From NCBI RefSeq assembly GCF_020150455.1, contig NZ_CP083740.1:1-64000 (forward strand): a DNA stretch of 64,000 bases, written 5' to 3'. A model generated the notes under the pieces. It did not search any database and had not been told where the DNA came from. It saw nothing but the letters and a program-made list of their open reading frames with translations. Made by a program: the position numbers and the translations under genes. The stretch comes from Bremerella sp. TYQ1 (GTDB lineage: Bacteria; Planctomycetota; Planctomycetia; Pirellulales; Pirellulaceae). This document shows positions 40,501-61,577 of this stretch, piece after piece. The first letter of the stretch is position 1. Every line of letters starts with the position of its first letter.

Positions 40501-40550
40501 TTGTTTGGTTATCTGCCTACTCGTCACTAATTTTGGGAAGTTGCTTTTTT

Positions 40551-44496: not shown

Positions 44497-44948
44497 GCAA
44501 ATTGCTGTGAGCAGGTGACGAATGAACGCCGTTTTCCGATTGTCTCGGAATACTTCCTCATTGTTACGCGGTCAGATGCCTGGATGAGTTAAAATATGAG
44601 CAAGTCATTCGTGCGATTGCAAAAAAATAAGGCTCGCCGCAAAGCCTTCCAGTTGAAGACCTTACGGCGAGCCTTATTTCAAAAGCGGAGAGAACGGGAT
44701 TCGTTCGAGCCGTTCGCGCAAGTCGTTGTAAACAAGTGACTTAGGTCGAAGCTCTTGCCCCTGCAAGGATTTAGGGCTTATCAGCTGTTATGGCATAGAA
44801 TACCGTCCTCTCACCTCTTGCGACGTGTTTTGGCACACTGTGCCATTCACTCTGTACTGGACGACTACGGGAATCATCCTGCCATAGGCGAGATGCAAGT
44901 AGCGTGAAGGGAAGGGTAGTCATGGACATAATCTCTTGGGAGATCTCC
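44497..44948. other. Intergenic region left of the recombinase
   Basis: About 450 bases containing the 15-bp inverted repeat at 44625-44679 and probably the recombinase promoter. If the island is an integrated element, one attachment site is expected in or near this stretch; the short core of serine-recombinase sites cannot be recognised by eye. Confidence 0.45.
44625..44679. terminator. Perfect 15-bp inverted repeat between polysaccharide locus and recombinase
   Basis: AAATAAGGCTCGCCG and its exact complement flank a 25-base loop. On the minus strand it is followed by TTTTTTT, a strong terminator reading leftward. On the plus strand it closes the glycosyltransferase transcript 130 bases after its stop, with a weaker U-run. 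It therefore works as a bidirectional insulator at the left side of the island. Confidence 0.7.
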
Positions 44949-46883
44949 ATGATTTCTTTTTCCGGTGGAATTCCTTCACCAAAGAATGGCCTCACATACT
45001 TGGTCCTGATCGTGGCCCGCATCTCGACGGTCCATCAGGATACGCGTAGCCTTGAAGATCAGATCGCAATCTGTTCCAAATGGTGTGAAGACAACCTTGA
45101 TCAGAAATTCGTAGTCAAGGTCATTCAAAGCCGGGGAAGTGGCGAACTGCTTGATCGCACGGAACTGAATGAAATCGAAGAGGCGATCGAGTCAGGCCGA
45201 TTTGATCTGTTCATGGCGGAGGACTTGGCTCGAATCTGTCGCCGAAATCGGGCGATTGATTTCTTGGAATTGGCCGAAGACCACGATACTCGGGTCGTAA
45301 TGCTAAACGACAACTTAGACACCGTTAACGAGGATTGGCGCCTGAAAGCCAGCTTCGCGACGATGCACCATGAACAGTCGAATTCGGATACCTCTAAACG
45401 AATTACGCGAAGTATTCGAAACCGATTTCTTCAGGGGATGATCCAAACGGTACCGAAGGGGTATATCAAGCCTTTTCCCAAAGCTCTCGATGCGGATGTG
45501 ACGAAGGATCCCGATGCAGAGCCGATCGTTATGGAGATCATTTCGCGACTTGAGAAGGGAGAGTCCTACTCGATGGTGGCGGATTTTCTCAACGAGAATC
45601 AAGTCCCGAAAGGTCCGTTTGGTCGCTCGAAAAAATGGACTGCAGCTGCTGTCTCGGGACTGATTCACAATCCAATTCTGAAGGGTATCCGGGAAGCAGG
45701 CCGTAAGATGGCCAAGCGGAACAATAAGTCTGGTAAACGACGCTCCGTAAAGGCTCCGCCAGAGAATCTTCAAGTCCGAAAAGTTCCGCATTTGGCTTAC
45801 ATTGATGCCGAGCGATATGACCGTCTCCTCCGAAAGCTCGACGCAAAGAACGCACCGTTTCGGCGCAAGAAGGTGAACGGCCGCGATTCTCGAGCCAACG
45901 TTCCCAAGAAACGCACGCGTTTTCCTGGTCAGCAAGTGTTCTGCGCTGTCTGCGGTCATCCAATGCAGTGGGGAGGGCATGGCCAAGTGGACCACATGGT
46001 TTGCAAGGGGGCTCGTGACTACCATTGCTGGCAAAGTGCGACCTTCGATGGGCTTCTTGCATCTGCGAAGATTCTGACGGCTGTCTATGAAGTATGCGAC
46101 AAGTTGCCGAATTTCCCAGAAACGCTTCAGAACCAAGTGCGAGATGAATTTCAAGCTCTGACTAACACGCGAGAGTCAGAGCGGAACCAGATTGAAAAGC
46201 GGATCGACAAGCTTACACGTGACCTGAATCGCTTGGTCGAGTTCATTCTGAATGGCAAGGGCTCTGACTTTGTTTCCCAGAAGATTGCTGAAACCGAGGC
46301 CGAGTTGGAGCAGGCGAAGTTAGAACTGCAAGAACTAGAGTCACGTCCTAGCGTGGCGCCGGTGCTTCCGACTTCCGATCAGGTACGAGAACTAGCCAAG
46401 GAGGCGATCGCCAAAGGTTCGGTGTGTCCATATGAACTTAGCCGAGTGATGCGCAAGTTGATCCCACGTATCGAGGCTCATCCCATGCGTCTCTGCGACG
46501 GCGGGGCGATCGTCATTCGCGCGAAGTTTCAGCTGAATCTATGTTCGTTGGTTCCTGGATTGAACGACCTTACGTTGGCGCGAGAAGTCATGACGCCGTC
46601 GCTTGAGGTGGACCTGTTCGAGCCAGTTCAGCGTGAAGCGTTTCGAGAGCGTGTTATCGCGCTCCGAGACGGGGGCATGAAACAACGCGACATTGCCGCC
46701 GAACTAGGGATCACCCTGCCAGCGGTGCAGAATGCAGCCAAATTGCAGGCTGAAATGGATTCAATGGGCCTGCAAGATCCATACATCCCGGTGACCGAGG
46801 CTCCGATGAACCTCAATCGTATGCGACGGCACTTGCATCCGCGATTTGAGTTTCAAACCTATGAACCTGGCAATCAGGACTAA
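44949..46883 (+). CDS. Large serine site-specific recombinase
   Basis: About 644 residues from ATG 44949 (GGGAG six bases upstream; ATG 44922 is an alternative with AAGGG). Resolvase-type catalytic domain: VARISTVHQDTRSLEDQ with the nucleophilic Ser, LLDRTELNEIEEAI, and DLFMAEDLARICRRN. The recombinase domain follows, then a zinc ribbon (FCAVCGHPMQW and CKGARDYHC), then a long coiled coil (about residues 395-465). Near the C-terminus is a helix-turn-helix like MKQRDIAAELGITLPAVQNAAK. Large serine recombinases integrate phages and mobile islands using short att sites. It is intact, and is the main evidence that the downstream block is mobile or once was. Confidence 0.93.
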   Translation: MISFSGGIPSPKNGLTYLVLIVARISTVHQDTRSLEDQIAICSKWCEDNLDQKFVVKVIQSRGSGELLDRTELNEIEEAIESGRFDLFMAEDLARICRRNRAIDFLELAEDHDTRVVMLNDNLDTVNEDWRLKASFATMHHEQSNSDTSKRITRSIRNRFLQGMIQTVPKGYIKPFPKALDADVTKDPDAEPIVMEIISRLEKGESYSMVADFLNENQVPKGPFGRSKKWTAAAVSGLIHNPILKGIREAGRKMAKRNNKSGKRRSVKAPPENLQVRKVPHLAYIDAERYDRLLRKLDAKNAPFRRKKVNGRDSRANVPKKRTRFPGQQVFCAVCGHPMQWGGHGQVDHMVCKGARDYHCWQSATFDGLLASAKILTAVYEVCDKLPNFPETLQNQVRDEFQALTNTRESERNQIEKRIDKLTRDLNRLVEFILNGKGSDFVSQKIAETEAELEQAKLELQELESRPSVAPVLPTSDQVRELAKEAIAKGSVCPYELSRVMRKLIPRIEAHPMRLCDGGAIVIRAKFQLNLCSLVPGLNDLTLAREVMTPSLEVDLFEPVQREAFRERVIALRDGGMKQRDIAAELGITLPAVQNAAKLQAEMDSMGLQDPYIPVTEAPMNLNRMRRHLHPRFEFQTYEPGNQD

Positions 46884-46914
46884 TCTCTTTGCCAAACAAT
46901 TCGATGTTTCCTCT

Positions 46915-46947
46915 AAGCCCACGGTGAACTTCTCCGGGGGCTTTTTT
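46915..46947 (+). terminator. Rho-independent terminator of the recombinase gene
   Basis: AAGCCC-a-CGG and CCG-g-GGGCTT form a 9-bp stem with one mismatch, followed by a run of T. It begins 31 bases after the recombinase stop and separates it from the small gene that follows. Confidence 0.82.
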
Positions 46948-46973
46948 ATGCGCATAATTCAGTTGGAGGACCT

Positions 46974-47135
46974 ATGTCAGAGAACAGGCCGAATAATTCG
47001 ACCGACAACAGTCATGCCACAGAACCCATTGCGAACGCAATGTCGCAGTTTATTCAACTGATTGCTAAGACGGTAGCTCGCCAGCTAAGCGAAGAGTTAG
47101 TCGCTGGCGATGATGATCAATTTGAACAATTGTAG
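46974..47135 (+). CDS. Small 53-aa protein downstream of the recombinase
   Basis: A short gene with an excellent Shine-Dalgarno (TTGGAGGACCT then ATG). The product has a polar N-terminus (SENRPNNSTDNSH), one amphipathic helix (EPIANAMSQFIQLIAKTVARQL) and an acidic tail (EELVAGDDDQFEQL). It starts 26 bases after the recombinase terminator. I do not know the family. The position next to the recombinase suggests a recombination directionality factor or a regulator, but excisionases are usually basic and this is acidic, so the role is open. Confidence 0.6.
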   Translation: MSENRPNNSTDNSHATEPIANAMSQFIQLIAKTVARQLSEELVAGDDDQFEQL

Positions 47136-47604
47136 CTGAAGACGCCATTCGACAGCAGAACTTGTTTTGTGGTATTCACCGCGATGATCGACATTCCCGC
47201 GGCCGGTTACCAGATGATTCATATCGCTTCCCTGGAACGATCTTAGATAGTAGACTTGGGGGATGGCGAGCAACTATCTTGCTACGTCCATTTTAACACA
47301 TTAATGGAATACGTTATTCATGAACGGCTGACCCAACGTCGGCCAGACATCTCGATATGACGCGTGAGCGTTGGAAAACTGCTTCGTCCCGAAACCGCCA
47401 ACTTGAGCCCTCGGGCTCTCGAACGACAGAAAGCAGCAACCTGTACCGCGTCCCCGAAAGGGGACGTCGGCCGGGTGCTGTTCTGTCGTGCCTCTTGGCG
47501 GAGGTCGGGACGAGCGGACTTGGTTCGGCGTCCCTTTTTCTATGCGTCGAGCCATCTTCCTCCGCTTGCGTGATCCCTAACTCTCTTATCCTTGAGGAGC
47601 GATC
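47136..47604 (+). other. Intergenic region with structured leader
   Basis: About 470 bases between the 53-aa gene and the secreted-protein gene. The first 260 bases show no gene. From about 47405 to 47540 the sequence is strongly self-complementary (listed separately). A good GAGGAG ribosome-binding site precedes the gene at 47605. Confidence 0.5.
47405..47539 (+). ncRNA. Putative structured leader or small RNA with terminator/antiterminator halves
   Basis: Three hairpins in a row. (1) 47405-47418: GAGCC / GGCTC. (2) 47423-47489: a long stem with outer ACGACAGAA / TTCTGTCGT, middle CAGCA / TGCTG, and a tip CGTCCCC-GAAA-GGGGACG closing on a GNRA tetraloop. (3) 47507-47539: GGGACG / CGTCCC followed by TTTTT, a terminator shape. 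GGGACG and CGTCCC each occur twice, so the second arm of hairpin 2 can instead pair with the last arm of hairpin 3, which would break the terminator. This is the layout of an attenuator, 65 bases before the gene at 47605; it could equally be a free small RNA. Confidence 0.55.
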
Positions 47605-48849
47605 ATGCGAAACAATTGGGTGCCTGCGGGCCATGAGTCTTACCTGGCCAGATCGATGGCTTTGCTTTTGGGGGCCCTGGGGGGCATTGCCAGTCTGCTT
47701 GTTTCGGAGCCGGTCGTGGCCGCGCCACCGGCACTTCCCCAGGAGTACCGAACGCTGGCTGGCCACCTGGCCATGACCTTGAAGACGTCTCCTGACGAGT
47801 TCGAGGGACCCGGCAACCTGACCGAGACGCTGTCATCAGGGCATACGACGATCTTGTCCTTGAAGGACATCAAGTCTTCCGATCGGCAGATTGAATACAT
47901 CACGCGGCAGACGGAAGCGTCGCTGGTGGAATGCCTTCAGCGGGCAGAGCGTCTTAATGCGCTTCCCAAGCCGCCAGGAACTGGGGAACTGATGGCCAAT
48001 TCATTCATCGATGGGTTCATGGGGAATCCTGGTGGAGGATACGCTCGTGGGCTGGAAGCTGAGCAGATGCAGACAGCGATCAAGAATGAACTCTATCCCT
48101 TGTTTGCGGCGATGGAAAAGTTGGATGCCACCCACCAGATGTTGGTGCCAGTTGCCAAAAAGTATGCCGCGAATCTGACCTATCCCGCCAACCGCATCAC
48201 GGTTGACCTGGATGAGTCCTGGGGACCGGTGGGCCCTTTTGATTGGCTTTACGTTCACAACCAAGGCCCGGCAATTCGCGACGCGACGGTGGTCGTGAAA
48301 CTGACCGGTGCCGATGGCGCGACGCGTACGAACGTCCACTTCGTTCCAAACTGGGACGCCAATACCTGGCTCTATGGCCGCTATGAGGCAGGACTCCAAG
48401 CCCTGGGGAAGTCCGTTGGGAACACTACAGTCCCCGGGGTGAAGAAAGTCGAGGTGACCGTTTATTCTCCCAGTTTTTCGACGGCGGTCAGCTACACGTA
48501 TGAAGGGGATGCCAGAGATAGCGATATCGCCAAGTACTGTAAGTCGTTGACGTTTACCGGACGGTATCAGCCCTACGTCACCAAGCGTTATTGGCCGGAT
48601 ACGAAGCGGGGTGTGGAGTTCACGCTGGATGGCCTAGAAGGCATTCCGCATTGCCAAGTCAAAGTGACCTTCTGGAAGGGGCTGCTCCAAAAAACCGAAA
48701 CGTGGGAATTCGACGATTGGAAACGAGGCGACAAGAAGATGTTTCGCCCGAAACAGCCGCTGGAATCGGATCCTACCATGGCGACGATGGAAATTTCTTT
48801 TCCTGGGACGTCTTACCAGCATCGCTACTCCTACTACGTGACTCCCTAG
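47605..48849 (+). CDS. Secreted hypothetical protein, first gene of island operon
   Basis: 414 residues. The start has GAGGAG six bases upstream. A signal peptide with a long n-region ends near EPVVAAPPA (about residue 41). The mature N-terminal half is helical (IEYITRQTEASLVECLQRAERLN and a long helix near 150-185). The C-terminal half is beta-rich with WGPVGPFDWLYVHNQGPAIRDATVVVKLTG and ends in a YRYSYYV-like strand, suggesting Ig-like or sandwich domains. I do not recognise a family. It leads the same-strand block of the island and is the only fully secreted product in it. Confidence 0.72.
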   Translation: MRNNWVPAGHESYLARSMALLLGALGGIASLLVSEPVVAAPPALPQEYRTLAGHLAMTLKTSPDEFEGPGNLTETLSSGHTTILSLKDIKSSDRQIEYITRQTEASLVECLQRAERLNALPKPPGTGELMANSFIDGFMGNPGGGYARGLEAEQMQTAIKNELYPLFAAMEKLDATHQMLVPVAKKYAANLTYPANRITVDLDESWGPVGPFDWLYVHNQGPAIRDATVVVKLTGADGATRTNVHFVPNWDANTWLYGRYEAGLQALGKSVGNTTVPGVKKVEVTVYSPSFSTAVSYTYEGDARDSDIAKYCKSLTFTGRYQPYVTKRYWPDTKRGVEFTLDGLEGIPHCQVKVTFWKGLLQKTETWEFDDWKRGDKKMFRPKQPLESDPTMATMEISFPGTSYQHRYSYYVTP

Positions 48850-48945
48850 CGGGGAGTATGGGGGCTTGGCGTTCTGCTTTGGGCCAGCAGAAAGGCGAAC
48901 GCTCTGTCGTCCAATTTCATTCAGAGCACTCTTTAGGGGCGAGTA

Positions 48946-50385
48946 ATGGAAGATGATTCGAAGAGGCAATGGTATGTAAAAACCCCGCAGGGGATTTACG
49001 GGCCATATACCTCGCTGCAGCTTAAGCAGTTTGGTGAGAAGGGCGATGTGCATGCCGGTTACCAGGTACGCAAAGGCCCGGATGGCGAATGGGTTGCTGC
49101 CGATAAGATTCGGGGCTTGAAAACGCGCGTTCCAGTCGCTGAGCCTGTGAAACCTCCGGTACCACCAGCACCTCATCCGTCGAGGGTGGCAAACCGTGCC
49201 CGTGCGTCGAGTACTTCTCCGTTGGCCTGGCTGGCCATTGTGGGCGTTCCGGTAGGTGCCGCACTGCTTGTTGGGACGATCATCGCCGTCACCAGTCAGT
49301 CGAATTCCAACTCGGAGGTGCCGGGAGTTAGCCGAAATACTGGGCAGCCCGTAGCGACCGATGAGCGTTCCTGGGCTCGTGATCGACAGGTGTCTTCGTC
49401 ACCAGCCACGGTTGACGGAAACAACTCACCGATGTCGGTCCGCGAAATCGTTCAGGCGAATGAGCAGTCGGTCGTGCTTTTGCGTGGCGCTGTGGGAAGT
49501 GGAACCGGCTTCATTGTCGGGGATCAACTGCTGGTAACCAACAGTCATGTGGTCGCTGTCGCGGCACTCAATCCCGCCACCGGCGAGTTTAAGGATTTGC
49601 GAGCTTATAGCCCAGCAGCAAGTGCAGACCGTCGCGGTCCTTATCGCGTATCGCTTCTGTACGAGGATCCCGACTGGGACCTTGCCGTTCTCCGGATCTT
49701 GGATCGAGTCGACTTTCGCCCAGTAGTGATGGCCAAGAATTACCAGTTTCAGCGTGGGGAAGCGGTCACCATTATCGGAAACCCGGGTTTGTTCAACGGA
49801 GTCGAAACACTCGAGACAGCAGTAAGCACGGGCATTCTCAGTACAACGCATCCGCTCCAGGGGCGTGAGCACTATCAACTGGGAGCGTCCGTGAATGGAG
49901 GCAACTCGGGCGGTCCCGTTTTTGGCGAGGCGGGACAGGTGATTGGTGTGGTGAATGCCAAGTCCGTGTCCGAAGACGAGATCTCCTTCTGCATTCCCGT
50001 GCGTGAGGCGATTAGGGCGACAGCGGAAGCTCGCAGTATATCAGCAAGATCGCAACAGCTTATGTGGAAGGAGCATGAGAGCCGTGTCCCGAAGGCCATC
50101 GCCAATCTCGCGGTCCCTTCGGGATCCATTGTGACCATTGCCAACCCTCCTTGGTCCTTTGTATTTATTGCCAGTACGCCCGACGATCTCATCGCGGCTT
50201 CCGAATACGCTTACGCAGGCAACACGATCGGCATGCAGCAGATGATCGCTTCAGGACGGGTGATGATGGTCGATTCGGGGACGAAAGTGGAGGTCATCGA
50301 CTCGAATATGTTCTGCGCCGTCAAGATTTTGAATGGCCTGTATGCCGGTCGAACCGGACTGGTTTCCATTAAATGTTTGAAGTAA
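48946..50385 (+). CDS. GYF-domain, transmembrane, trypsin-like serine protease
   Basis: 479 residues. Residues 7-57 form a GYF_2-type domain (QWYVKTPQGIYGPYTSLQLKQF and the WVAADKI end). A Pro-rich linker and one membrane helix (about 93-116) follow. A trypsin-like domain (about 165-360) has an intact triad: His201 in VTNSHVV, Asp245 in DWDLAVL, Ser321 in GGNSGGPVFG. The C-terminal 100 residues look like an SH3-like module (GTKVEVIDSN, LYAGRTGLVSI). No PDZ domain, unlike HtrA. Topology should put GYF in the cytoplasm and the protease outside. It is 96 bases after the secreted-protein gene and 63 before the next membrane gene. Confidence 0.88.
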   Translation: MEDDSKRQWYVKTPQGIYGPYTSLQLKQFGEKGDVHAGYQVRKGPDGEWVAADKIRGLKTRVPVAEPVKPPVPPAPHPSRVANRARASSTSPLAWLAIVGVPVGAALLVGTIIAVTSQSNSNSEVPGVSRNTGQPVATDERSWARDRQVSSSPATVDGNNSPMSVREIVQANEQSVVLLRGAVGSGTGFIVGDQLLVTNSHVVAVAALNPATGEFKDLRAYSPAASADRRGPYRVSLLYEDPDWDLAVLRILDRVDFRPVVMAKNYQFQRGEAVTIIGNPGLFNGVETLETAVSTGILSTTHPLQGREHYQLGASVNGGNSGGPVFGEAGQVIGVVNAKSVSEDEISFCIPVREAIRATAEARSISARSQQLMWKEHESRVPKAIANLAVPSGSIVTIANPPWSFVFIASTPDDLIAASEYAYAGNTIGMQQMIASGRVMMVDSGTKVEVIDSNMFCAVKILNGLYAGRTGLVSIKCLK

Positions 50386-50448
50386 GGGGAACACGGATGA
50401 TGGATTTTTGGCAGGGATGTCTTCACTTTGTTTTGAGAAGGAGGATGT

Positions 50449-51519
50449 ATGAAATCAATGCAACCTGGGAAATGGACACTGCAAATTGCCGGAGTCCTTA
50501 GCTTGGCTTGTCTATTCGGGGCGATCAGCTATCTCACGCTCAAGTCGGGACCAAGTCCTCCCGAGCTATCGACGGAGTCGACCTCACCAGAGGCGTCTCA
50601 GCGATCGGAGTCTGAGATGCGACAAGAGTTGTTCGACGATCATGTTTTCCCTGTCATTCGCCAGGCAGATTTGGCAAATCGTGCTGCCGCGGAGCGTTGT
50701 CTCGCCCGAATCCAGGAGTCATTTCAACGCTATCGACAAGGGGTAAAGCCATTTGCGGAAGATGTGACTGGGCTGGGAAGTAAGTGGGGGGTACTGCGAC
50801 GGATGCCAGGCGATTGGATGACCGGATCGAATTCAGTCGAGGCATTCATCTCGGGCCAATTGGAAAAGCATGTATTCTCAGCGCAGGAGATCCAACGCGA
50901 TATCGATGCTTCATTGGCCTTGTTTCGCGAAGATGTCGAAGCCAATCGCAATGTCATGCTCAGGAAGGTAAAAACAGCGACAGCGGGGCTTTCCTTGCCT
51001 GCGATACAGAATCTGAACACCCGGACGTTCTCGCAGCAGGTCACAGAGAAGGTTCGGGAGTTTTCCACGGAAACGGCGGCGGATGGCGTTACGGATTTGG
51101 TGGTGATTGAAGTGACCTCGGGTGTAGGCGGTTATGCCGTGGAACAAGTCTTCATGGCCATGCTGGTACGGATTGGCACGACCGCAGGAGGAGCGACCGT
51201 CGGAAGTGCTTCGGCGGGAAGTGCCCTCGGATCAACAGTCGGTCCATTGGGTACCGGTGTTGGTGTGGTCGCTGGTTTGATCGCGGGGCTGATCATTGAC
51301 CAAGTGTTGGGGGAATACGCCAGGTCCGATGTTAGCAAGCAATTGTTGGAACTAATCGATCAAATCGAAGTCGCCGCGATTCATGGTCTCCCAGAATGTA
51401 CGAATTCCGCGATAGATGCCTACCCTGGCCTGAAGCATGTTCTGCAAAATACATGTGACGAACTCAACCGGGCCAACCTGGAAATCTTAAAGCAATCGAT
51501 TCTGGAGGTGAAAGCGTGA
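50449..51519 (+). CDS. Membrane-anchored helical protein with Gly-rich hydrophobic segment
   Basis: 356 residues, family not recognised. An N-terminal helix (about 11-32, LQIAGVLSLACLFGAISYL) anchors it. A long helical extracytoplasmic region follows (HVFPVIRQADLANRAAAERCLARIQESFQRY, then KHVFSAQEIQRDIDASL). Residues about 235-300 are a Gly/Ala/Ser-rich hydrophobic stretch (GTTAGGATVGSASAGSALG, GVGVVAGLIAGLIIDQVL) that could insert in a membrane as two packed helices, resembling glycine-zipper segments. The stop overlaps the next gene by four bases. The overall shape recalls membrane-inserting or scaffold proteins; no function is claimed. Confidence 0.7.
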   Translation: MKSMQPGKWTLQIAGVLSLACLFGAISYLTLKSGPSPPELSTESTSPEASQRSESEMRQELFDDHVFPVIRQADLANRAAAERCLARIQESFQRYRQGVKPFAEDVTGLGSKWGVLRRMPGDWMTGSNSVEAFISGQLEKHVFSAQEIQRDIDASLALFREDVEANRNVMLRKVKTATAGLSLPAIQNLNTRTFSQQVTEKVREFSTETAADGVTDLVVIEVTSGVGGYAVEQVFMAMLVRIGTTAGGATVGSASAGSALGSTVGPLGTGVGVVAGLIAGLIIDQVLGEYARSDVSKQLLELIDQIEVAAIHGLPECTNSAIDAYPGLKHVLQNTCDELNRANLEILKQSILEVKA

Positions 51520-52439
51520 GAACTCGCCCCGTCTTGATTTTGGGCGTGGTACTTCTCGTTCTGCTTCTCGCGTCTCCTTGGCTTTTAGCGTCGCCCGCAT
51601 CGACAATCTCTAAAACACTCATGCGGTTCTTCTCGAAAGAAGCGGTCGAAGAAGGATCCGAAAAACTCGCCAAAGAGGTTGGCCCGGAATTGCTACAGCG
51701 AGTTTCTGCCAAACTGGCTCGTGACGGGCGTGAGTCTGCAGTCGCCAAAGCGTCGGAATTGGCGGCGAAACATGGTCCTGATGTGGTCCGTGCTCTCGAC
51801 AATGCTCCGGTACCCGCCAAGATCGTTCAGGCCCTTGGGGAATTACCTACGGAAGAAGTTTCGACAGCGGCTGCCCGACTGGCGAGTGGTCGTCGCGGTC
51901 AACAACTGGCCGAAGCGACTGAAGAGCTTGGTGCCCAGATGCTTCAGGCCGAAATCAAACATCCCGGCGTTGGAATGGAACTGGTCCGAGTTTGGCCAGA
52001 CAGTGGAGCAGCGCTGGCGCGCCAGCTGAGTCGGGAAGAAGCTCTCACACTGGGAAAACACCTAGATGATTTGCAGAGCGTACCGCAAGAGCAGCGAGCA
52101 GGCCTCTTACAAGTCATTCAGAGCGACAAAGAGCGTTTCTTTGGCTGGCTCGGGAAATTCATCGAGGAGCATCCTGGCAAAACGATTGGATCAGCGACCT
52201 TCCTGGCGGCGTTCCTACCGAATTCGGAGCGAATTCTCGGTGGGGATCAAATCATCTTCGATGACAGCGGGAGTCCCATCGTGGTTCGAAAACCGGGACT
52301 TCTGGAAGCACCGCTCAATAAGCTCGCAGATTCCTTGGCGTTTGGTGCCCTATGGCTCGTCGGCGGAATCGGCGTCGTCGTAACCCTTTGGCTTGCCTTG
52401 AATCTCATTCTTCCTGCTTGGCAAAGCAACCGTCCGTAG
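51516..52439 (+). CDS. Two-helix membrane protein with helical-repeat middle
   Basis: 307 residues, starting with GTG overlapping the previous stop by four bases, so the two are translationally coupled. N-terminal helix about 5-26 (VLILGVVLLVLLLASPWLLA) and C-terminal helix about 278-300 (LWLVGGIGVVVTLWLALNLIL). Between them are short repeated amphipathic helices rich in Ala, Glu and Leu (KEAVEEGSEKLAKEVGPELL, VAKASELAAKHGPDVVRAL, IVQALGELPTEEVSTAAARL), resembling helical repeats. Both ends are in the membrane, so the middle forms one loop domain. Family not recognised. Probably a partner of the preceding protein. Confidence 0.7.
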   Translation: MRTRPVLILGVVLLVLLLASPWLLASPASTISKTLMRFFSKEAVEEGSEKLAKEVGPELLQRVSAKLARDGRESAVAKASELAAKHGPDVVRALDNAPVPAKIVQALGELPTEEVSTAAARLASGRRGQQLAEATEELGAQMLQAEIKHPGVGMELVRVWPDSGAALARQLSREEALTLGKHLDDLQSVPQEQRAGLLQVIQSDKERFFGWLGKFIEEHPGKTIGSATFLAAFLPNSERILGGDQIIFDDSGSPIVVRKPGLLEAPLNKLADSLAFGALWLVGGIGVVVTLWLALNLILPAWQSNRP

Positions 52440-52666
52440 CAGAACTTGGCAAATCCGAGTGCGGAATTGTGGGTGATCGCTTTGCTGATTTGTCTTGCTA
52501 AATTTTCGGATCAAACGTGGCATAACTAAGTGAGGGATATTATCTCCCGACATGTTTATGCCACCTCTGCCTTGGCTGAAATCAGGGGCTGGATTGGGCC
52601 GCCATCATTTCTCATTTGTCAGATCACCGCTGTGATCTTTGTCAATAGTTTTCAAAAGGAGGTTCT
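52440..52666 (+). other. Gap between membrane arm and cytoplasmic arm of the island
   Basis: About 227 bases, the largest gap inside the same-strand block, ending in a near-perfect Shine-Dalgarno (AAAAGGAGGTTCT then ATG). A separate promoter for the DUF1257 gene and those after it is likely here, but I cannot define it. Confidence 0.4.
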
Positions 52667-53035
52667 ATGTCACATGTTGTCACGGTTCAGACAGAAGTAC
52701 GCGATCTAGAGGCAATTCGCCAAGCAACGCGGCGTCTGCAATTACCAGAACCCACATTCGGTGAAGTCCAACTGTTTAGCGAACGCAAAACCGGTTGGGC
52801 GATCCAACTGCGAGACTGGCGATACCCTGTCGTCGCCAATCTTGAATGTGGTCGCCTCGACTATGACAACTATGCGGGCCGCTGGGGGCGGCAGCAAGAG
52901 CTCGACCAGTTTATCCAGCGGTACGCCGTCGAGGCCGCGGTCTTGCAGGCTCGTAAACAGGGTTACACGACCACCGAGCAGCCATTAACTGATGGCAGCA
53001 TCAAACTTCTCATTCAAGTTGGAGGCGAAAATTAA
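52667..53035 (+). CDS. DUF1257 (Ycf35-like) protein
   Basis: 122 residues. The start MSHVVTVQTEVRDLEAIRQATRRL matches the DUF1257/Ycf35 beginning (MSH-x-T-x-x-T-x-x-x-x-L). The middle has the family's WAIQLRDWRYPVVANLECGRLDYDNYAGRWG, and the end EAAVLQARKQGYTTTEQPLTDGSIKLLIQV is also typical. Ycf35 is conserved in cyanobacteria and red-algal plastids without a known biochemical role. Here it lies three bases before a DUF2997 gene and close to a Ycf46-like ATPase, so this is a Ycf35/Ycf46 context outside photosynthetic organisms. Confidence 0.85.
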   Translation: MSHVVTVQTEVRDLEAIRQATRRLQLPEPTFGEVQLFSERKTGWAIQLRDWRYPVVANLECGRLDYDNYAGRWGRQQELDQFIQRYAVEAAVLQARKQGYTTTEQPLTDGSIKLLIQVGGEN

Positions 53036-53038
53036 TCC

Positions 53039-53233
53039 GTGAAAGTGATCGAAATCATTGTCTCTCCCGAAGGAGAGTCCAAGCTGGAAACCCGGGGCTT
53101 TCAAGGGGCCGAGTGCCAGGAAGCCAGCCGCTTTCTGGAACTTGCCTTGGGCAGGAAAACGTCCGACACGGCAACGTCGGAATTTCATCAAACGAGCGTC
53201 CAGCAGCAAACCCAGCTGGAGCAGAAAGAGTAG
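53039..53233 (+). CDS. DUF2997 small protein
   Basis: 64 residues, starting with GTG three bases after the DUF1257 stop. MKVIEIIVSPEGESKLETRGFQGAECQEASRFLELALG follows the DUF2997 pattern (short beta strands, then GF-x-G-x-x-C and a helix). The C-terminal tail is Gln/Ser/Thr-rich (FHQTSVQQQTQLEQ). DUF2997 genes are usual partners of DUF1257 genes, so the pair likely works together. The function is unknown; the single conserved Cys is a point to test. Confidence 0.78.
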   Translation: MKVIEIIVSPEGESKLETRGFQGAECQEASRFLELALGRKTSDTATSEFHQTSVQQQTQLEQKE

Positions 53234-53240
53234 GTAACCA

Positions 53241-53903
53241 TTGACCGAGTTTCACAATCATAAACCACCCGATAACCAGGCATTGATCGATCGAGCACGC
53301 GTACTGGTGATCGTCGAAGGCACCAATGACATTGAGTTCTTGCGAAGGATCTCACTGACGCTTCATGTGATCAGTTCCGACCTGCCTAATCTGGCCGAGA
53401 TGGAACAGCAAGGTCAACTCATTTTTGTTCCGTTCGGTGGCAATAACCTGCCAAGTTGGACCCACCGCTTCGCCGCTCTCGGTAAACCGGAGTTCTTCCT
53501 GTTGGACCATGAAGTCTCACCGGAGACCGAATCTCGCCAGGAAGCGGCCGAGATCATCAATCGGCGGCCTGGTTGCCGGGCTATCGTTACCCGCAAACGC
53601 AGTCTCGAAAACTACCTGCATCCGGATGCCATTCGCGATGCCGGAAAGATCGATGTGACGTTTGGCGACTTCGATCCCGTGGGAACGGTCGTCGCCAAAG
53701 CACTGTTTGAGTCGGGCATTTCCGACGAGCCATGGGAACTCCTCTCGCGGCGATCGAAAAGTCGTCTCACGAGCCGAGCGAAACGCTGGCTCAATACTAC
53801 GGTTGCCAGCCAAATAACGGCAGAATTCCTTGAGCAGCGAGATCCCGATGGGGAAATCGCTTCTTGGCTCACCACCATCGGGCAATTGGCCCATTCTGTC
53901 TAA
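53241..53903 (+). CDS. Stand-alone TOPRIM-domain protein (OLD-like)
   Basis: 220 residues, TTG start seven bases after the DUF2997 stop. The TOPRIM fold is suggested by VLVIVEGTNDIEFLRRIS (the catalytic Glu motif), a middle FGGNNLPSW region, and FFLLDHEVSPETESR with acidic residues that can bind Mg. RKRSLENYLHPDAI matches the R-x-x-x-ENYL segment seen after TOPRIM in OLD-type nucleases and related proteins. There is no fused ABC ATPase, so it may depend on the AAA+ protein encoded next. It could be a nuclease or an inactive nucleotide-binding version. Confidence 0.75.
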   Translation: MTEFHNHKPPDNQALIDRARVLVIVEGTNDIEFLRRISLTLHVISSDLPNLAEMEQQGQLIFVPFGGNNLPSWTHRFAALGKPEFFLLDHEVSPETESRQEAAEIINRRPGCRAIVTRKRSLENYLHPDAIRDAGKIDVTFGDFDPVGTVVAKALFESGISDEPWELLSRRSKSRLTSRAKRWLNTTVASQITAEFLEQRDPDGEIASWLTTIGQLAHSV

Positions 53904-53924
53904 CGCTTGCTCTAGCGAGCGTTG
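53903..53924 (+). other. Hairpin between TOPRIM and AAA+ genes
   Basis: AACGCTTGCT and AGCGAGCGTT form a 10-bp stem (one G-U pair) with a two-base loop, starting at the TOPRIM stop codon. No U-run, so it is more likely to tune mRNA stability than to terminate. Confidence 0.4.
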
Positions 53925-53958
53925 TTCTACTTGTTACTTCAATCCATAAGGAATCCGT

Positions 53959-55449
53959 ATGCGCTTAGCAGACGAAATACAGGAACTGGTACGGGCCGGC
54001 TTCAGCGGCCTCTGGGTTCAGAGTTGTGAGCCTGACGATGCCTTGGCCGAACTAGCCCAAATGTGTCAGACGGAGAACTGGCGGCTGGCAACTTGGGATA
54101 TCGACGTAGGTCTCAGCGGACAGGCGTCGACCGAAGGTGTAGCGGTAACCGATCCGCTATCGGCGGTTCGGTCACTGGCCTCTGTCCCCAGTGATGGTCA
54201 TCCTACGCTCCTGGTCTTGGCAAACTTTCATCGGTTTCTCGGATCGGCGGAAGTGATCCAAGCACTCCTCCACCAAGTGGGTCAAGGCAAGATTCATCAG
54301 CGGCATCTGATTATCCTGTCGCCCGTAGTTCAATTGCCGGTCGAACTGGAACGCGTCATTACCGTGATCGAGCATGCCCTACCGACTCGCCAGCAGTTGG
54401 AAGAAATCGCGGCTTCGATAGCGGCAGACGCGGAAGAATTCCCGGAAGGTTCGCAGCGGGAGCGAATTCTCGATGCGGTTTGTGGCCTGAGTCGATACGA
54501 GGCAGAAAACGCGTTCGCGTTGTCTTTAGTACGCCATGGCCGCATTGAACCATCGGCGATCTGGCAACTCAAATCTCAGGCTCTCCTGAAAGGAGGTCTG
54601 CTCTCGCTTCATCGCGGAGGCGAAACGTTTGCCGATTTGGGAGGCCTGGATTCGCTGAAGGAGTTTTGCCTCCGAGCACTTCGCCCAAGCCCATCTACGA
54701 ACAACTCCGTCAAGGCAAAAGGTGTCTTACTCCTCGGTGTGCCTGGCACGGGCAAATCGGCACTGGCGAAAGCTTTGGGGGCGGAAGTCGGCAGGCCCAC
54801 CTTGACGCTCGATGTCGGCACGCTCATGGGCGGCATCGTGGGTGAAACGGAGGCAAGAACACGCCGCGCGTTGAAGGTGATCGACGCGATGGCCCCCGCC
54901 GTGCTTTTTGTTGATGAACTGGAGAAGAGTCTCAGCGGATCGACCGGTTCAGGAAAAACGGATAGCGGTGTCGGCAGTCGTATGCTTGGGACCTTGTTGA
55001 CATGGCTTGCGGATCATGAATCCGACATCTTCGTGATCGCAACGAGCAACGACATCTCGAAGCTTCCGCCTGAACTAACCCGCGCCGAGAGATTTGACGC
55101 GATTTTCTTTTTGGACCTGCCAGGGCGATCGCAGAAGCACGCGATCTGGCAGATGTATTTGCGGCGGTTCGAACTCGATCCTTCGCAAGTGTTACCGGCG
55201 GACGAGTCATGGACAGGGGCTGAGGTTCGCGCCTGTTGCCGCCTGGCAGCACTGCTTGATGTTTCGCTCTTAGAGGCGGCCAAAAACGTTGTTCCGGTTG
55301 CCGCGACTTCCGCCGAATCGGTCCAGCGACTACGAAGCTGGAGCAGCGGACGTTGTCTGTCGGCAGAGTCTGGCGGCATTTATCGAGCAGAAAATACGCC
55401 GTCTTCCAAGTCACGACGGCGACTGTCCCCCACCCCAGAAACCAACTAA
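53959..55449 (+). CDS. Ycf46-like AAA+ ATPase
   Basis: 496 residues. Residues 1 to about 200 look like a degenerate AAA-like half (GLWVQSCEPDDAL, LATWDIDVGL, LLVLANFHRFL), as in Ycf46 proteins. The active half begins FADLGGLDSLKEFC. Walker A GVPGTGKS is at 260-267, Walker B VLFVDE at 315-320, sensor Asn364 in ATSND, and candidate Arg fingers in LTRAERFD at 375/378. A basic, Ser-rich tail ends the protein. Ycf46 is a conserved cyanobacterial/plastid ATPase of unclear role. In this block it is the only obvious energy source and probably remodels or loads the DUF1257/DUF2997/TOPRIM partners. Confidence 0.88.
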   Translation: MRLADEIQELVRAGFSGLWVQSCEPDDALAELAQMCQTENWRLATWDIDVGLSGQASTEGVAVTDPLSAVRSLASVPSDGHPTLLVLANFHRFLGSAEVIQALLHQVGQGKIHQRHLIILSPVVQLPVELERVITVIEHALPTRQQLEEIAASIAADAEEFPEGSQRERILDAVCGLSRYEAENAFALSLVRHGRIEPSAIWQLKSQALLKGGLLSLHRGGETFADLGGLDSLKEFCLRALRPSPSTNNSVKAKGVLLLGVPGTGKSALAKALGAEVGRPTLTLDVGTLMGGIVGETEARTRRALKVIDAMAPAVLFVDELEKSLSGSTGSGKTDSGVGSRMLGTLLTWLADHESDIFVIATSNDISKLPPELTRAERFDAIFFLDLPGRSQKHAIWQMYLRRFELDPSQVLPADESWTGAEVRACCRLAALLDVSLLEAAKNVVPVAATSAESVQRLRSWSSGRCLSAESGGIYRAENTPSSKSRRRLSPTPETN

Positions 55450-55482
55450 TCCAGTCAATTTCACATTATCCAGGAGGTCTCT

Positions 55483-56430
55483 ATGACGGCGACAACCTTA
55501 GAACCGCCCGTTCAACGAACCGAATCATCGGCAGCGGATCGATTGCGATCCACCATGTGTGCGACCCGAGTCAGCTTTGTCTGGTTCGGAACCCAGAAGA
55601 CACTCACCCGTGCTCAGAAAGATCAGGCAGCTGAGTCGTTCGATGCCCAGGGGGAATTCCTACGGGCAGAGAAAAAACTGCTCGATACCCGGAATCCTCG
55701 CTTCAAAGCCGTCAACTCGGTGCGTAGCCAGATCCGCTCAATCTGGGAGATGACGAGCTTGCCGTATCCCGAACCTGGGATTCGACTGATTCGCCAAGAC
55801 ATGGTGCAAACATTTGAGGGCTGGATGGAAGAGCGACGCCAGCAACTACGAGAGGCGGTCCAGAAATTGGATGAGGAGTACGCCTCGCTGAGAGACGCAG
55901 CGCGCGAGCGACTAGGTGCTTTGTACAACAGCGCCGATTACCCTCGCACGCTCCTAGGACTATTTGACGTCTCTTGGTCATTTCCAAATATTGAAGTCCC
56001 ACCCTATCTTCGGTTGGTGAACCCGGACGTGTATCAGGCCGAATGTGAACGCGTTCAGGCACGCTTCGACGAGGCCATTGAGCTTGCAGAGTCCGCATTC
56101 ATTGAAGAGCTGTCCGGGCTCGTGTCCCATCTCACGGAACGGCTATCCGGGAGTCACGATGGAAGAGCAAAGATCTTTCGTGATACGGCGATCTCGAACT
56201 TGAATGAGTTCTTCGATCGATTTCGGTCCTTGAATATTCGCTCGAACGATCAGCTAGATTCGCTGGTGTCCCAGTGCCAAGAGATTGTTCATGGTGTCCA
56301 GCCGCAGTCTTTACGTGACAGTGCTCAGCTACGTCAGGCCGTCAGTCGGGAATTGTCGAGCGTCCAGAATTTGCTCGACGACTTACTTGTCGATCGCCCG
56401 CGTCGTCGGATTATTCGTTCACCGAAGTGA
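55483..56430 (+). CDS. Coiled-coil protein, weakly DUF3150-like
   Basis: 315 residues preceded by a strong AGGAGGT ribosome-binding site. Cytoplasmic and mostly helical. The N-terminal part (RVSFVWFGTQKTLTRAQKDQAAESF) and the order of helices around a YPEPGIRLIRQDMV turn remind me of DUF3150-type proteins that travel with MoxR/vWA or AAA genes on phages and plasmids, but the match is by eye only. Helices at about 115-150 and 205-250 are coiled-coil-like. The stop overlaps an in-frame GTG of the following small gene. Probably a structural partner of the AAA+ ATPase. Confidence 0.7.
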   Translation: MTATTLEPPVQRTESSAADRLRSTMCATRVSFVWFGTQKTLTRAQKDQAAESFDAQGEFLRAEKKLLDTRNPRFKAVNSVRSQIRSIWEMTSLPYPEPGIRLIRQDMVQTFEGWMEERRQQLREAVQKLDEEYASLRDAARERLGALYNSADYPRTLLGLFDVSWSFPNIEVPPYLRLVNPDVYQAECERVQARFDEAIELAESAFIEELSGLVSHLTERLSGSHDGRAKIFRDTAISNLNEFFDRFRSLNIRSNDQLDSLVSQCQEIVHGVQPQSLRDSAQLRQAVSRELSSVQNLLDDLLVDRPRRRIIRSPK

Positions 56431-56438
56431 GGTTGGCC

Positions 56439-56687
56439 ATGCAAATCGTGATTGCACCTGGCGGCGGGATCCGTTGTGTCTATGACGAAGCGATTGACCT
56501 GAGTTTGCTTGGCAAAGTTCAGATTTCACGTGGTTCCCACGTGGAGCCCAACAAGAGAGGTTATTGGTTCGCCGACCTGGCACCCGTTGGCGGCCCGAGA
56601 CTTGGACCATTTCTAAGGCGAACGGAAGCCTTGGCTGCTGAGGTAGCCTGGCTGGAAGCAAACTGGTTGTCCGCCAGCGAAGGCTGA
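56439..56687 (+). CDS. Small conserved-looking protein in island
   Basis: About 82 residues from ATG 56439 (GAGG upstream; a GTG at 56427 overlapping the previous stop is an alternative). The sequence MQIVIAPGGGIRCVYDEAID and then RGSHVEPNKRGYWFADLAPVGGP, LGPFLRRTEALAAEVAWL has the look of a small single domain that recurs in mobile gene clusters: a beta-hairpin start, a WFADL-x-PVGGP core and a C-terminal helix. Function unknown. It closes the main island transcript; a strong terminator follows 33 bases later. Confidence 0.65.
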   Translation: MQIVIAPGGGIRCVYDEAIDLSLLGKVQISRGSHVEPNKRGYWFADLAPVGGPRLGPFLRRTEALAAEVAWLEANWLSASEG

Positions 56688-56719
56688 CGACAGTCGAACA
56701 ATTGTGAACTGAATAGTTA

Positions 56720-56763
56720 GCCCCATGGAAAGGCATGACCGTCTTTCCGTGGGGCATTTTTAT
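56720..56763 (+). terminator. Strong rho-independent terminator of the island operon
   Basis: GCCCCA-x-GGAAAG and CTTTCC-x-TGGGGC form a 12-bp stem around one mismatch, with a 10-base loop, followed by ATTTTTATTT. Confidence 0.88.
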
Positions 56764-56785
56764 TTCTTGTAGAGAGGAAATACAC

Positions 56786-57001
56786 ATGCATGCATCCGAA
56801 CTATGCCAACAAGTCGCTCACGCAACCGGCGAGAGCATCCAAACCATTCGGAGATTGGGTTTCTCGCTCGTAGAAGAGTTCCCGGCGGAGATCGATGATG
56901 AGATGTTATTCGGCCCCAACATGGTCGATTGGGATGAGGTGGAAGTCGCACGCACTCAACTCCAAGATGGGATTGAACGAAATGTTCCGTCGGCTGCTTA
57001 G
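56786..57001 (+). CDS. Small acidic protein after the island terminator
   Basis: 71 residues from ATG 56786, with AGAGGAAA upstream; a longer frame to 56735 would read through the terminator. MHASELCQQVAHATGESIQTIRRLGFSLVEEFP has an MerR/phage-regulator-like helix-turn-helix feel (helix, turn GESI, helix), then an acidic C-terminus (DDEMLFGPNMVDWDEVEVA). The position right after a terminator parallels the 53-aa gene behind the recombinase. It could be a small DNA-binding or antirepressor-type protein; not recognised. Confidence 0.6.
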   Translation: MHASELCQQVAHATGESIQTIRRLGFSLVEEFPAEIDDEMLFGPNMVDWDEVEVARTQLQDGIERNVPSAA

Positions 57002-57299
57002 GACTCAAAAAACGATTAAATGGTTGCGACGCTTCCTCGATCATCGCCAAATTCGAGGTGGCCAGCGCCGAGGACGGCGAGAGATGAGAGCTTGCCGTTG
57101 TCGACCAAGATGCCGCTACGTACGCAATACTGATTAAATTGTGTTTGACGACAAACGAGGGGGCGTCCGGATGGACGCCCCTTGGACCATTTTCTTAGCT
57201 TTTGGAAGCCTGCAAGAAAGGTTGAGCTGGGTGTGATGAAAAGTAACCCAGGTCGGTTCGTCCTGGGCAAGTTCTGCACGAGCATTGCGCACAGTCCTT
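57002..57299. other. Convergent gap at right end of island
   Basis: About 300 bases between the last island gene and the stop of the RND operon. It contains a hairpin at 57158-57183 (listed separately). On the minus strand 57016-57135 reads as a gene-like tail (SGILVDNGKLSSLAVLGAGH, ending in TAA), possibly the last 40 codons of a lost gene, but without a start. Confidence 0.35.
57158..57183. terminator. GC-rich hairpin between convergent transcripts
   Basis: GGGGCGTCC and GGACGCCCC form a perfect 9-bp stem with a GGAT loop, extendable by A-T and G-T pairs. The U-runs on both sides are poor. It lies between the island end and the RND operon end, so it may serve both. Confidence 0.5.
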
Positions 57300-57794
57300 C
57301 TAACGACTAAGAGATGCCGAGGATGTAGGGCTAATCATTCGGCGTAGTTTTGGTGCAAGATTTGACAGTTCGTCGGTGCCGATAATCCGTTCCTCCACCT
57401 GGCCGTCTACCATGACCAGAAACGTTGGATATTGAGAGATGTCGTACTTCTCGGCCAGAAACGTATTTCGTTCGACGTCGACTTCACGAAAGCGGACTTT
57501 GCCCTTAAGTTGATCGGCAAGTTCTTGGAGGTGGGGTTTCGCTTTTTGGCATTCGGGGCACCACCTGGTGCTCATGATGACGACGACCGGGTTGGGATGC
57601 TTCAGGACTTCTTGTGCAAACGTTTCGTCGGTAGCTTGGACGAAGGTGGAGGCCACGGACCTATCATCATCGTTCGACAGTGTCTTGTCGAGCCCGTGAT
57701 CACAGCCCACGATGACAAAAGCAAGTATCACACTCCAACAGCAAAAGCAGCGTGGAAGAACGGAGCGAACAATCATCGGAACTGGAAGTTTCAT
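57300..57794 (-). CDS. Thioredoxin-like lipoprotein
   Basis: About 164 residues from ATG 57794 (an ATG at 57776 is also possible). A lipoprotein signal with Cys after VILAFVIVG is followed by a thioredoxin fold: VVVIMSTRWCPECQKAKPHLQELA with a Cys-Pro-Glu-Cys active site, VRFREVDVERNTFLAEKYDISQYPTFLVMVDG with the cis-Pro, and a final helix. It should be a membrane-anchored periplasmic thiol-disulfide enzyme. As last gene of the heavy-metal efflux operon it may keep the many Cys residues of its neighbours reduced, an inference from context. Confidence 0.8.
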   Translation of the reverse strand: MKLPVPMIVRSVLPRCFCCWSVILAFVIVGCDHGLDKTLSNDDDRSVASTFVQATDETFAQEVLKHPNPVVVIMSTRWCPECQKAKPHLQELADQLKGKVRFREVDVERNTFLAEKYDISQYPTFLVMVDGQVEERIIGTDELSNLAPKLRRMISPTSSASLSR

Positions 57795-57906
57795 AGGGTT
57801 ATCCAAAAACGTCAGTCGACGGCTAGCTGCTCTAGGCGACAGCCAGCCGTCGTATCTGACGAGCGGAAGGTAACCTGCGACGATAACCTCCGCTAGAGAC
57901 GATACG

Positions 57907-58335
57907 TTAGGAATCGGAGTCCTTCTTGAGGACCTCTGGCGTTGGTGGGTCTTCTCCATTCTTGGCCTTATACCGGGCGGCAAACCTTTCGAAGAGTTCC
58001 GGCGAACAGATGAAGCATTGCGAATCGGGACGATTGTGATCTTCACACCAATCCCCTTTTTCTTTGAACTCAGCTATCAGCTTGGTATCACACTGAGCAC
58101 AGATTTCTTCGGGGACGCCATGTTCGGCGCACCACCATTCGCCATGGACATGGCCGTGTTCGTCACCGTGCTCATGCTCGTCGCCATGTTCATGTCCATG
58201 GTCGTCGTGGGCTACTTCCGAGTGCTCGTCGGAATCCCCCATCGCCGATTCACTGGTGCCGCAGCCCGTCAGTGTAAGAGCGGCGATCGCCAAAAGGCCA
58301 ACGGCCAAACTCGAAAAACCAAACATCCACTTCAT
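57907..58335 (-). CDS. His-rich, Cys-containing metal-binding lipoprotein
   Basis: 142 residues with lipobox LTLTGC (Cys25). Residues 39-66 are a His/Asp/Glu/Gly stretch (HGHEHGDEHEHGDEHGHVHG), a likely zinc/nickel/copper-binding tail. Residues 67-112 carry a module with WCAEHGVPEEICAQC and a second WCEDHNRPDSQCFIC. A nearly identical pair of motifs occurs in the N-terminal periplasmic region of the CzcB-like adaptor in the same operon. It probably acts as periplasmic metal carrier or buffer for the pump. It lies 38 bases after the pump gene. Confidence 0.8.
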   Translation of the reverse strand: MKWMFGFSSLAVGLLAIAALTLTGCGTSESAMGDSDEHSEVAHDDHGHEHGDEHEHGDEHGHVHGEWWCAEHGVPEEICAQCDTKLIAEFKEKGDWCEDHNRPDSQCFICSPELFERFAARYKAKNGEDPPTPEVLKKDSDS

Positions 58336-58373
58336 TAGATTCTCCTTTTCAATTCTTGATGACTGAATTCTAG

Positions 58374-61577
<3,204 letters not shown>

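Follow-up and report, generated by a model that had tools for sequence, protein, structure and literature searches.

A modular, AAA+-centred candidate conflict system with exchangeable arms on integrative elements of planctomycetes

AAA+ cores joined to exchangeable effectors are found in the MoxR-vWA and FtsH ternary conflict systems; according to Kaur et al. 2020 (PMC7159879), their partners in planctomycetes include trypsin, GYF-transmembrane (GYF-TM) and GYF-trypsin proteins, and some have a ubiquitin-like (Ubl) tri-ligase with JAB. Genes for Ubl, E2, JAB and E1 are likewise adjacent in bacterial ubiquitin-like operons of types 6a-6e, as given in Iyer 2006 (PMC1779556). PRTRC (ParB-related, ThiF-related cassette) neighbourhoods of plasmids include genes for ThiF, Ubl (PRTRC C) and JAB (PRTRC A). 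The BIL and Bub operons are bacterial ubiquitin-like operons of comparable kind, and Ycf35 (DUF1257), DUF2997 and Ycf46 form a set of cyanobacteria and plastids. The subject here is a group of eleven plus-strand genes (g1-g11) at 47605-57001 of a 64,000-nucleotide stretch of Bremerella sp. TYQ1 (contig NZ_CP083740.1, positions 1 to 64,000; hereafter the window), downstream of a large serine recombinase gene. The source genome, coded G000, is one contig of 6.66 Mb; relatives are coded Gnnn and loci Lnnn. The last seven genes belong to a module that is real and recurrent, and that was not found described in the literature searched (titles and starts of abstracts in open-licence PubMed Central). 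It is read here, with somewhat better than even confidence, as a modular AAA+-centred conflict system, most likely anti-phage, that is carried as cargo on integrative elements and is equipped with exchangeable arms.

A preliminary description of this DNA had listed ten same-strand genes with tiny gaps or overlaps, preceded by a large serine recombinase. The shared strand and the recombinase, with its Resolvase and Recombinase domains, hold; the gene count becomes eleven because homologues of both 56427-56687 and 56735-57001 recur in relatives. Intergenic gaps from g1 to g11 are 96, 63, -4, 227, 3, 7, 55, 33, -4 and 47 bases, and the spacing of 227 bases separates two sets, g1-g4 and g5-g11. 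The features are as follows.

44622..57263, plus strand: unit common to G000 and G381 (L140), from the recombinase to past g11 (91.4% identity over 8614 bp, 87.0% over 3441 bp)
44904..46883, plus strand: large serine recombinase (Resolvase 1e-12, Recombinase 1.1e-14)
46974..47135, plus strand: small open reading frame (ORF) of 53 amino acids after the recombinase, from the ORF list; no Pfam match
47605..48849, plus strand: g1, probably exported protein (N-terminal hydrophobic segment) and, from its homologues, a recurrent upstream partner of the core
48946..50385, plus strand: g2, predicted GYF domain, one TM helix (about residues 91-109) and trypsin-like serine protease (Pfam, motifs)
50449..51519, plus strand: g3, membrane protein with two hydrophobic segments
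51516..52439, plus strand: g4, membrane protein with two hydrophobic segments, overlapping g3 by 4 bases
52667..53035, plus strand: g5, DUF1257 (Ycf35-like) by Pfam
53039..53233, plus strand: g6, DUF2997 by Pfam
53241..53903, plus strand: g7, stand-alone TOPRIM-like protein, optional (PADLOC GajA profile, invariant residues)
53959..55449, plus strand: g8, Ycf46-like AAA+ ATPase (Pfam AAA, PDB comparison)
55483..56430, plus strand: g9, predicted DUF3150-type protein (predicted fold and sequence similarity)
56427..56687, plus strand: g10, small conserved core protein, present in 46 of 46 fully flanked loci
56735..57001, plus strand: g11, small conserved core protein, present in 43 of 46 fully flanked loci
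57160..57181, no strand given: GC-rich hairpin where the unit ends (terminator scan)

The g8 protein matches the AAA family (2.3e-27) with Walker motifs intact, and the closest PDB structures to its AAA module are Cdc48/p97. Over nearly its full length it resembles AAA proteins on cyanobacterial plasmids, one of which lies beside DUF1257 and DUF2997; the name Ycf46 follows the preliminary description and is used provisionally. DUF1257 is matched by g5 at 23.7 bits against a cut-off of 22.2, and DUF2997 by g6 at 1.2e-12. No Pfam family matches g7, and its alignment gave one chance-level match (E 0.47) against PDB sequences; its residues 19-104 match the PADLOC GajA profile (4.4e-5, 20.5 bits), and the residues E26, D30, D89 and E91 do not vary across 19 sequences, that of the window among them. 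Of the earlier family assignments for g5-g8, DUF1257, DUF2997 and AAA+ are borne out by the Pfam matches, and TOPRIM by the GajA profile and invariant acidic residues. The g9 protein had been called a coiled-coil protein; its membership of the module stands and its identity is corrected. Its predicted structure (mean predicted local distance difference test score 82) matches phage proteins in BFVD, the best of them named DUF3150 (E 1.5e-13, template modelling score about 0.7), and plasmid proteins annotated as DUF3150 match it by sequence with 30% identity over 84%; Pfam gave no match at E up to 1, and solved structures none at E 0.001 or better. By fold and sequence together g9 is thus a predicted DUF3150-type protein, and it is likely the partner of the ATPase g8. 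A PADLOC 2.0.0 scan of g1-g10 returned no match for g1, g4, g5, g6, g9 and g10 and only domain-level or weak matches for g2, g3, g7 and g8; no curated defence system model of that set covers the core genes scanned.

The seven-gene order of the second set occurs three more times in G000 and also in other genomes, and such an arrangement exceeds chance. There are five g9 copies in G000 and seven in G238. A TOPRIM search located three further G000 loci, each of which holds the second set complete (seven genes, 46-77% protein identity) and lacks g1-g4, and the fifth copy, at 3.47 Mb, has neither TOPRIM nor g1-g4. Two of the G000 copies, integrases and recombinase included, are 94.7% identical over 12.6 kb, from which it follows that these elements move or duplicate. 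A genome scan with the g9 alignment, with search patterns that reach close relatives only, yielded 52 loci; the distribution is patchy, with a match in 29 of 392 Planctomycetota genomes (24 of these above 300 bits), and close homologues in named records are planctomycetal, save for a few metagenome-assembled genomes that are otherwise or vaguely labelled.

Gene content was surveyed in the 46 loci, among them the window, whose sequence extends 8 kb or more upstream of g9 and 5 kb or more beyond it; shorter loci were left out. These loci are mutually related and were selected by g9, the count of which is therefore given by construction; genes of the relatives were called by a simple greedy script that can miss small ones, and some alignment rows cover the matched stretch instead of an entire ORF. 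The AAA+ gene and g10 are present in all 46, DUF1257 and DUF2997 in 44 each and g11 in 43, and all six non-TOPRIM core genes stand together in 42; most core loci outside G000 are without g1-g4. Judged by this content, the second set is a conserved module with a constant core of AAA+, DUF3150-type, DUF1257, DUF2997, g10 and g11 proteins.

Two loci show interrupted core genes. At L027:6113-9444, DUF1257 occurs three times, as one near-complete copy, one truncated copy and a detached C-terminal piece; a recombinase-like gene on the opposite strand lies between them, and something may insert at or in DUF1257. In the other locus, two pieces of the AAA+ gene flank a group II intron reverse transcriptase with HNH (L070:6200-8008).

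Around this core, and beyond what the preliminary description had covered, the module in other families frequently contains genes for ubiquitin-like conjugation or a clamp. TOPRIM is optional, being present in 16 of the 46 loci. Ubl, E2, JAB and E1 genes lie side by side downstream of the core in the same 18 loci, and a DnaN-like clamp gene is downstream in 14; both clamp and Ubl set are found only in L048, and 14 further loci and the window have neither. The search of the window for clamp and Ubl-set genes found none, and the Ubl set is missing from all 16 fully flanked loci of the window's family. In G000, where Ubl and JAB were sought only in the window and its copies, none was seen there; searches of the whole genome gave nothing for E2 and one weak match of 50 residues for E1. 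Mapped on the g9 tree, the distribution of TOPRIM takes 5 changes and that of the Ubl set 7, which indicates repeated gain or loss of both, though clustered.

The E1 of the relatives is a ThiF match (6.7e-23), and the Ubl is ThiS-like (8.6e-6). For the putative E2, an HPH motif and a cysteine are invariant in 16 of 16 sequences, and E2 enzymes top the fold list with E-values of about 0.1 and a predicted template modelling score of 0.49; its alignment retrieved only the Cys-rich part and chance helical matches among PDB sequences. The E, H-x-H, S, D motif of JAB is invariant in 14 of 14, with Prok-JAB at 22.5 bits, slightly below the cut-off of 25. The clamp matches DnaN (7rzm, 2.3e-8) in two stretches with repeated clamp domains, and single-sequence searches gave no Pfam or NCBIfam match; in some loci a PD-(D/E)XK nuclease (3.1e-31) follows. 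Other upstream partners are GYF-TM proteins (5 of 46) and a coiled-coil lipoprotein-like gene (16 of 46). By sequence the module has two kinds of arm. Those of the cytoplasm, by prediction, are TOPRIM, the DnaN-like clamp with or without the nuclease, and the Ubl E1/E2/JAB set; those of the envelope, again by prediction, are exported proteins of the g1 type, GYF-TM proteins and, in the window, the GYF-TM-trypsin with g3 and g4. The whole core with TOPRIM, Ubl, E2, JAB and E1 is also present on a contig of a viral collection (L156, IMGVR_UViG_3300045391_007588), with two serine-recombinase-like genes upstream; the copy may belong to a phage, or the contig may be a bacterial element wrongly classed among viruses.

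The envelope arm of the window begins with g1, which is probably exported, given its N-terminal hydrophobic segment; in several relatives its start is lipoprotein-like by eye. Ten g1 homologues, one of them in two pieces, occur in 9 of 392 genomes, and 8 of the 10 lie within about 8 kb of g9 (in G000, G327, G381, G069, G238 with two, G385 and G321), the one in G321 being on the opposite strand and not upstream of the core; G003 and G051, which hold the others, gave no g9 match in the g9 scan of 392 genomes. The association of g1 with the core is general and extends across genera. The g2 protein matches Trypsin_2 (2.7e-24) and also GYF_2 (5.6e-4, below the GYF_2 cut-off); its trypsin motifs TNSHVV, DWDLAVL and GNSGGPV are all intact, in agreement with the catalytic triad claimed at the outset. 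The single helix ahead of the protease domain predicts an N-in, protease-out topology. Fusions of GYF-trypsin and GYF-TM type are reported from planctomycete conflict operons (PMC7159879), with which an effector role for g2 would fit.

In another species, G381, the L140 locus matches window positions 44622-57263 in recombinase, g1-g4 and core at 87-91% DNA identity; this unit is without TOPRIM, and its flanks do not match those of the window. In G327 (L150) all of g1-g11 are found with 85% DNA identity, and the 3.6 kb ahead of the unit hold no similar recombinase. By these alignments g1-g4 and core move as one unit within one genus, together with the recombinase in the case of G381, where the site is unrelated. 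The two sets had been proposed as a single system; their co-movement in that genus supports this, and the sets are nonetheless separable: the other four G000 copies are without g1-g4.

The elements that carry cores are dissimilar. Cores are preceded by serine recombinases, some only 23-27% identical to that of the window, by tyrosine integrases or, at L067, by TniB and TniQ, which have homologues in L061 and L070. Serine recombinases were counted in 13 of 46 loci with three query recombinases, a count that misses any just beyond 10.5 kb upstream, that of the window included. The left end of the common unit, 44622-44720, has hairpin-like complementary arms by eye, present in G381 too. A tRNA insertion site was considered, as the left end looks tRNA-like by eye, and was rejected when ARAGORN found no tRNA in the window or 13 loci; the regions around the two ends of the unit share no exact 9-base repeat. 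Proof by an empty site was also attempted and set aside: the right flank of the G381 copy is barely conserved in four relatives, and what is seen is unrelated flanks. The right flank of the window begins sharply at 57297 in G327, at another place.

Recurrence near recombinases or defence genes had been named beforehand as the test of the defence idea, and the core occurs on several kinds of mobile element and with defence neighbours. Full-length genes divergent from the core encode HmaA (L113, 1984 bits), DrmD (L118, 1082 bits) and PglW (L115, 1539 bits), and a type I methyltransferase with a restriction endonuclease (L114) or GajA with GajB (L030) are similarly placed. Further out, past L118, L115 and L124, are genes of DISARM (DrmA, DrmB), BREX (BrxC-PglY, PglZ, BrxHI) and Hma (HmaB, HmaC). 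Enrichment within 25 kb was calculated for 57 cores in 24 core-bearing genomes (a 108-residue g9 remnant, G121:C4:1796863, and weak-g9 genomes were left out), against uniform placement with rounded genome sizes and no correction for islands in general. Eight of 18 SNF2 defence helicases (above 200 bits) lie near a core, where 0.35 are expected, as do 7 of 35 N6 methylases (N6_Mtase, above 100 bits), where 0.63 are expected. Both families were picked after the first neighbours were known; a recount without those previously seen gives 4 of 14 for SNF2 (P about 7e-5) and 4 of 31 for N6_Mtase (P about 0.002). In these relatives cores are associated with defence genes, 15 of the 57 having an SNF2 or N6_Mtase neighbour, the window copy not among them.

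How far the module can be assigned to known systems was judged by profile scores. The nearest kinds are PRTRC plasmid neighbourhoods and MoxR-vWA/FtsH conflict systems, and the scores place it in neither. Relatives outside the family of the window resemble PRTRC in having Ubl, E2, JAB and ThiF adjacent, whereas the window copy lacks the Ubl set; the E1 of one planctomycete relative reaches 33.2 bits, where PRTRC_ThiF requires 144.75, and one Ubl and one JAB of a relative have no match to PRTRC_C or PRTRC_A (NCBIfam). No ParB-related protein is among the family matches of the window's set, in which no search was aimed at ParB. In place of a MoxR/vWA pair, which was not found among the window genes, there is a Ycf46-like AAA+ with a DUF3150-type partner; bpMoxR scores 10.8 bits against a cut-off of 27, and the ten proteins scanned have no vWA match. 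In the main text of Kaur et al. 2020 (PMC7159879) the terms DUF2997, Ycf and DUF3150 do not occur. Unlike bacterial ubiquitin-like operons, the Ubl set of the relatives has an E2 with a Cys-rich tail and follows an AAA+ core operon. As for Gabija, g7 resembles the TOPRIM region of GajA, but it is stand-alone and corresponds only to that part, and no GajB match was found in the ten proteins scanned; IetA scores 54.1 bits against a cut-off of 510, with no IetS match. A Pseudanabaena plasmid has DUF1257, DUF2997 and an AAA+ gene together; this cyanobacterial set differs in host and context, and no TOPRIM is annotated in 13.5 kb of the plasmid.

Several observations weigh against a conflict system. 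DUF1257, DUF2997 and Ycf46 occur in cyanobacteria outside any defence context, and a DUF1257 control match was obtained in Synechococcus. Three species of a single genus are the only ones in which the full trypsin with g3 and g4 was found alongside the core. Neither tested family lies within 25 kb of 42 of the 57 cores, some of which are on short contigs, nor of the window copy. That copy is flanked by glycosyltransferase-like genes (by eye) on one side and by a thioredoxin and metal-efflux-like locus (efflux by eye) on the right, and nine of the ten large flanking proteins scanned have no PADLOC match at 1e-5, the tenth (40533-41876) having a partial match to mad3. Clustering with defence genes places the core in defence islands and does not of itself prove function. 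The claim of a plausible defence or conflict system on a mobile block keeps its mobility and, in relatives, a defence association; the function and the mechanism are inferred.

Rather unlikely, in our estimate, though the most substantial of the rivals, is a core that helps its mobile element in integration, replication or partition, as PRTRC or DUF3150/AAA+/vWA genes might on plasmids. The core is multi-copy and near recombinases, and TOPRIM and clamp arms suggest action on DNA. On CP114554, a plasmid of Manganitrophus (Nitrospirota), AAA+, a small ORF, DUF1257, DUF2997 and DUF3150 follow one another; the PRTRC genes C, A and ThiF begin about 11 kb away, and a ParB-family gene lies about 8.5 kb off; on two proteobacterial plasmids a g9-like gene is flanked by AAA+/ATP-binding and vWA-like genes, and in the Paraburkholderia plasmid this gene, between ATP-binding and vWA-like genes, is about 11 kb from PRTRC genes. 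Such a helper is harder to reconcile with the dissimilar recombination systems that carry cores, with the many loci that have no recombinase like the query set within reach (other kinds could escape) and with the enrichment of defence genes. A core that serves as accessory or regulatory module of an adjacent DISARM, BREX, Hma, restriction-modification or Gabija system would account for the head-to-head, divergent arrangement in L113, L114, L115, L118, L030 and L142; the partners are of several unrelated kinds and the same 42 copies have neither tested family nearby, and we regard this as improbable. Chance adjacency of two independent islands, protease set and core, is very improbable. The 227-base gap and the four G000 copies without g1-g4 speak for it, as does the recombinase-g3-g4 run of G121, which is not seen joined to the core; this run reaches contig ends, the g4 and g9 ends both lie there, and the join may be merely unassembled. 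Recombinase, g1-g4 and core together in G381, g1-g11 in G327 and the g1 homologues near the core speak against it, and for g1 and core chance adjacency is already largely refuted.

If the conflict-system reading is followed, g8 and its DUF3150-type partner would form an ATP-driven remodelling ring that recognises or dismantles foreign nucleoprotein complexes. The cytoplasmic arms would engage DNA or tag proteins, with TOPRIM, or clamp and nuclease, or ubiquitin-like tagging, providing target engagement or cleavage. For the window copy, activation might reach the exported trypsin domain by way of the GYF domain in the cytoplasm, and the trypsin would then damage the envelope or arrest the cell; the predicted g2 topology allows such sensing inside and cleavage outside, as had been suggested. 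The order of these steps is a guess, and any particular mechanism is much less certain than defence itself. Tentatively, and with more doubt than belief, the module may be pictured as an immune machine in which a Cdc48-like Ycf46/DUF3150 unfoldase works with envelope effectors and with one of several target modules, be it TOPRIM, a mimic of the sliding clamp plus a nuclease, or a full ubiquitin-like set that attaches and removes tags. It would be the bacterial counterpart of the ubiquitin/p97 segregase pathway, directed against invaders. Were this so, Ycf35, DUF2997 and Ycf46, long mainly plastid and cyanobacterial hypotheticals, would gain a testable role against mobile DNA. Ubiquitin-like conjugation in bacteria would have a genetic tie to a Cdc48-like ATPase, and the way in which the ubiquitin-like set and the clamp mimic nearly alternate would indicate a target step common to both. 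A defined, movable unit of 12.6 kb is now available for testing.

Some minor features of the window concern its transcript ends and surroundings. The preliminary description had a strong terminator closing the genes; the hairpin at 57160-57181 (9 pairs, 8 of them GC) is present, and it supports that claim only in part, as the scan reports it on the minus strand only. At 56720-56755 the plus strand has a stronger terminator-like hairpin of 15 pairs with a T-rich tail, ahead of an inner ATG. Since g11 homology begins near residues 8-18, this ATG may be where g11 really starts, and the hairpin suggests that g11 may be partly separate from the rest of the operon. The scan gave 20 terminator-like sites against 11.3 in shuffled sequence, and promoter-like sites showed no excess over shuffled sequence. 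The 447-residue protein of 40533-41876, near the unit, has its partial mad3 match at 72.9 bits and is probably some ATPase. ORFs of 50-80 amino acids with a similar helical motif (by eye) lie directly 3' of serine recombinases at 46974-47135, L034:4720-4905, L028:2826-3050 and L046:2428-2670, and could encode a directionality factor. The thioredoxin/metal-efflux-like flank, 57297-61577, is conserved in G327 (L165, G327:C9) about 22 kb from its core unit, and a second, diverged thioredoxin-like stretch adjoins that unit.

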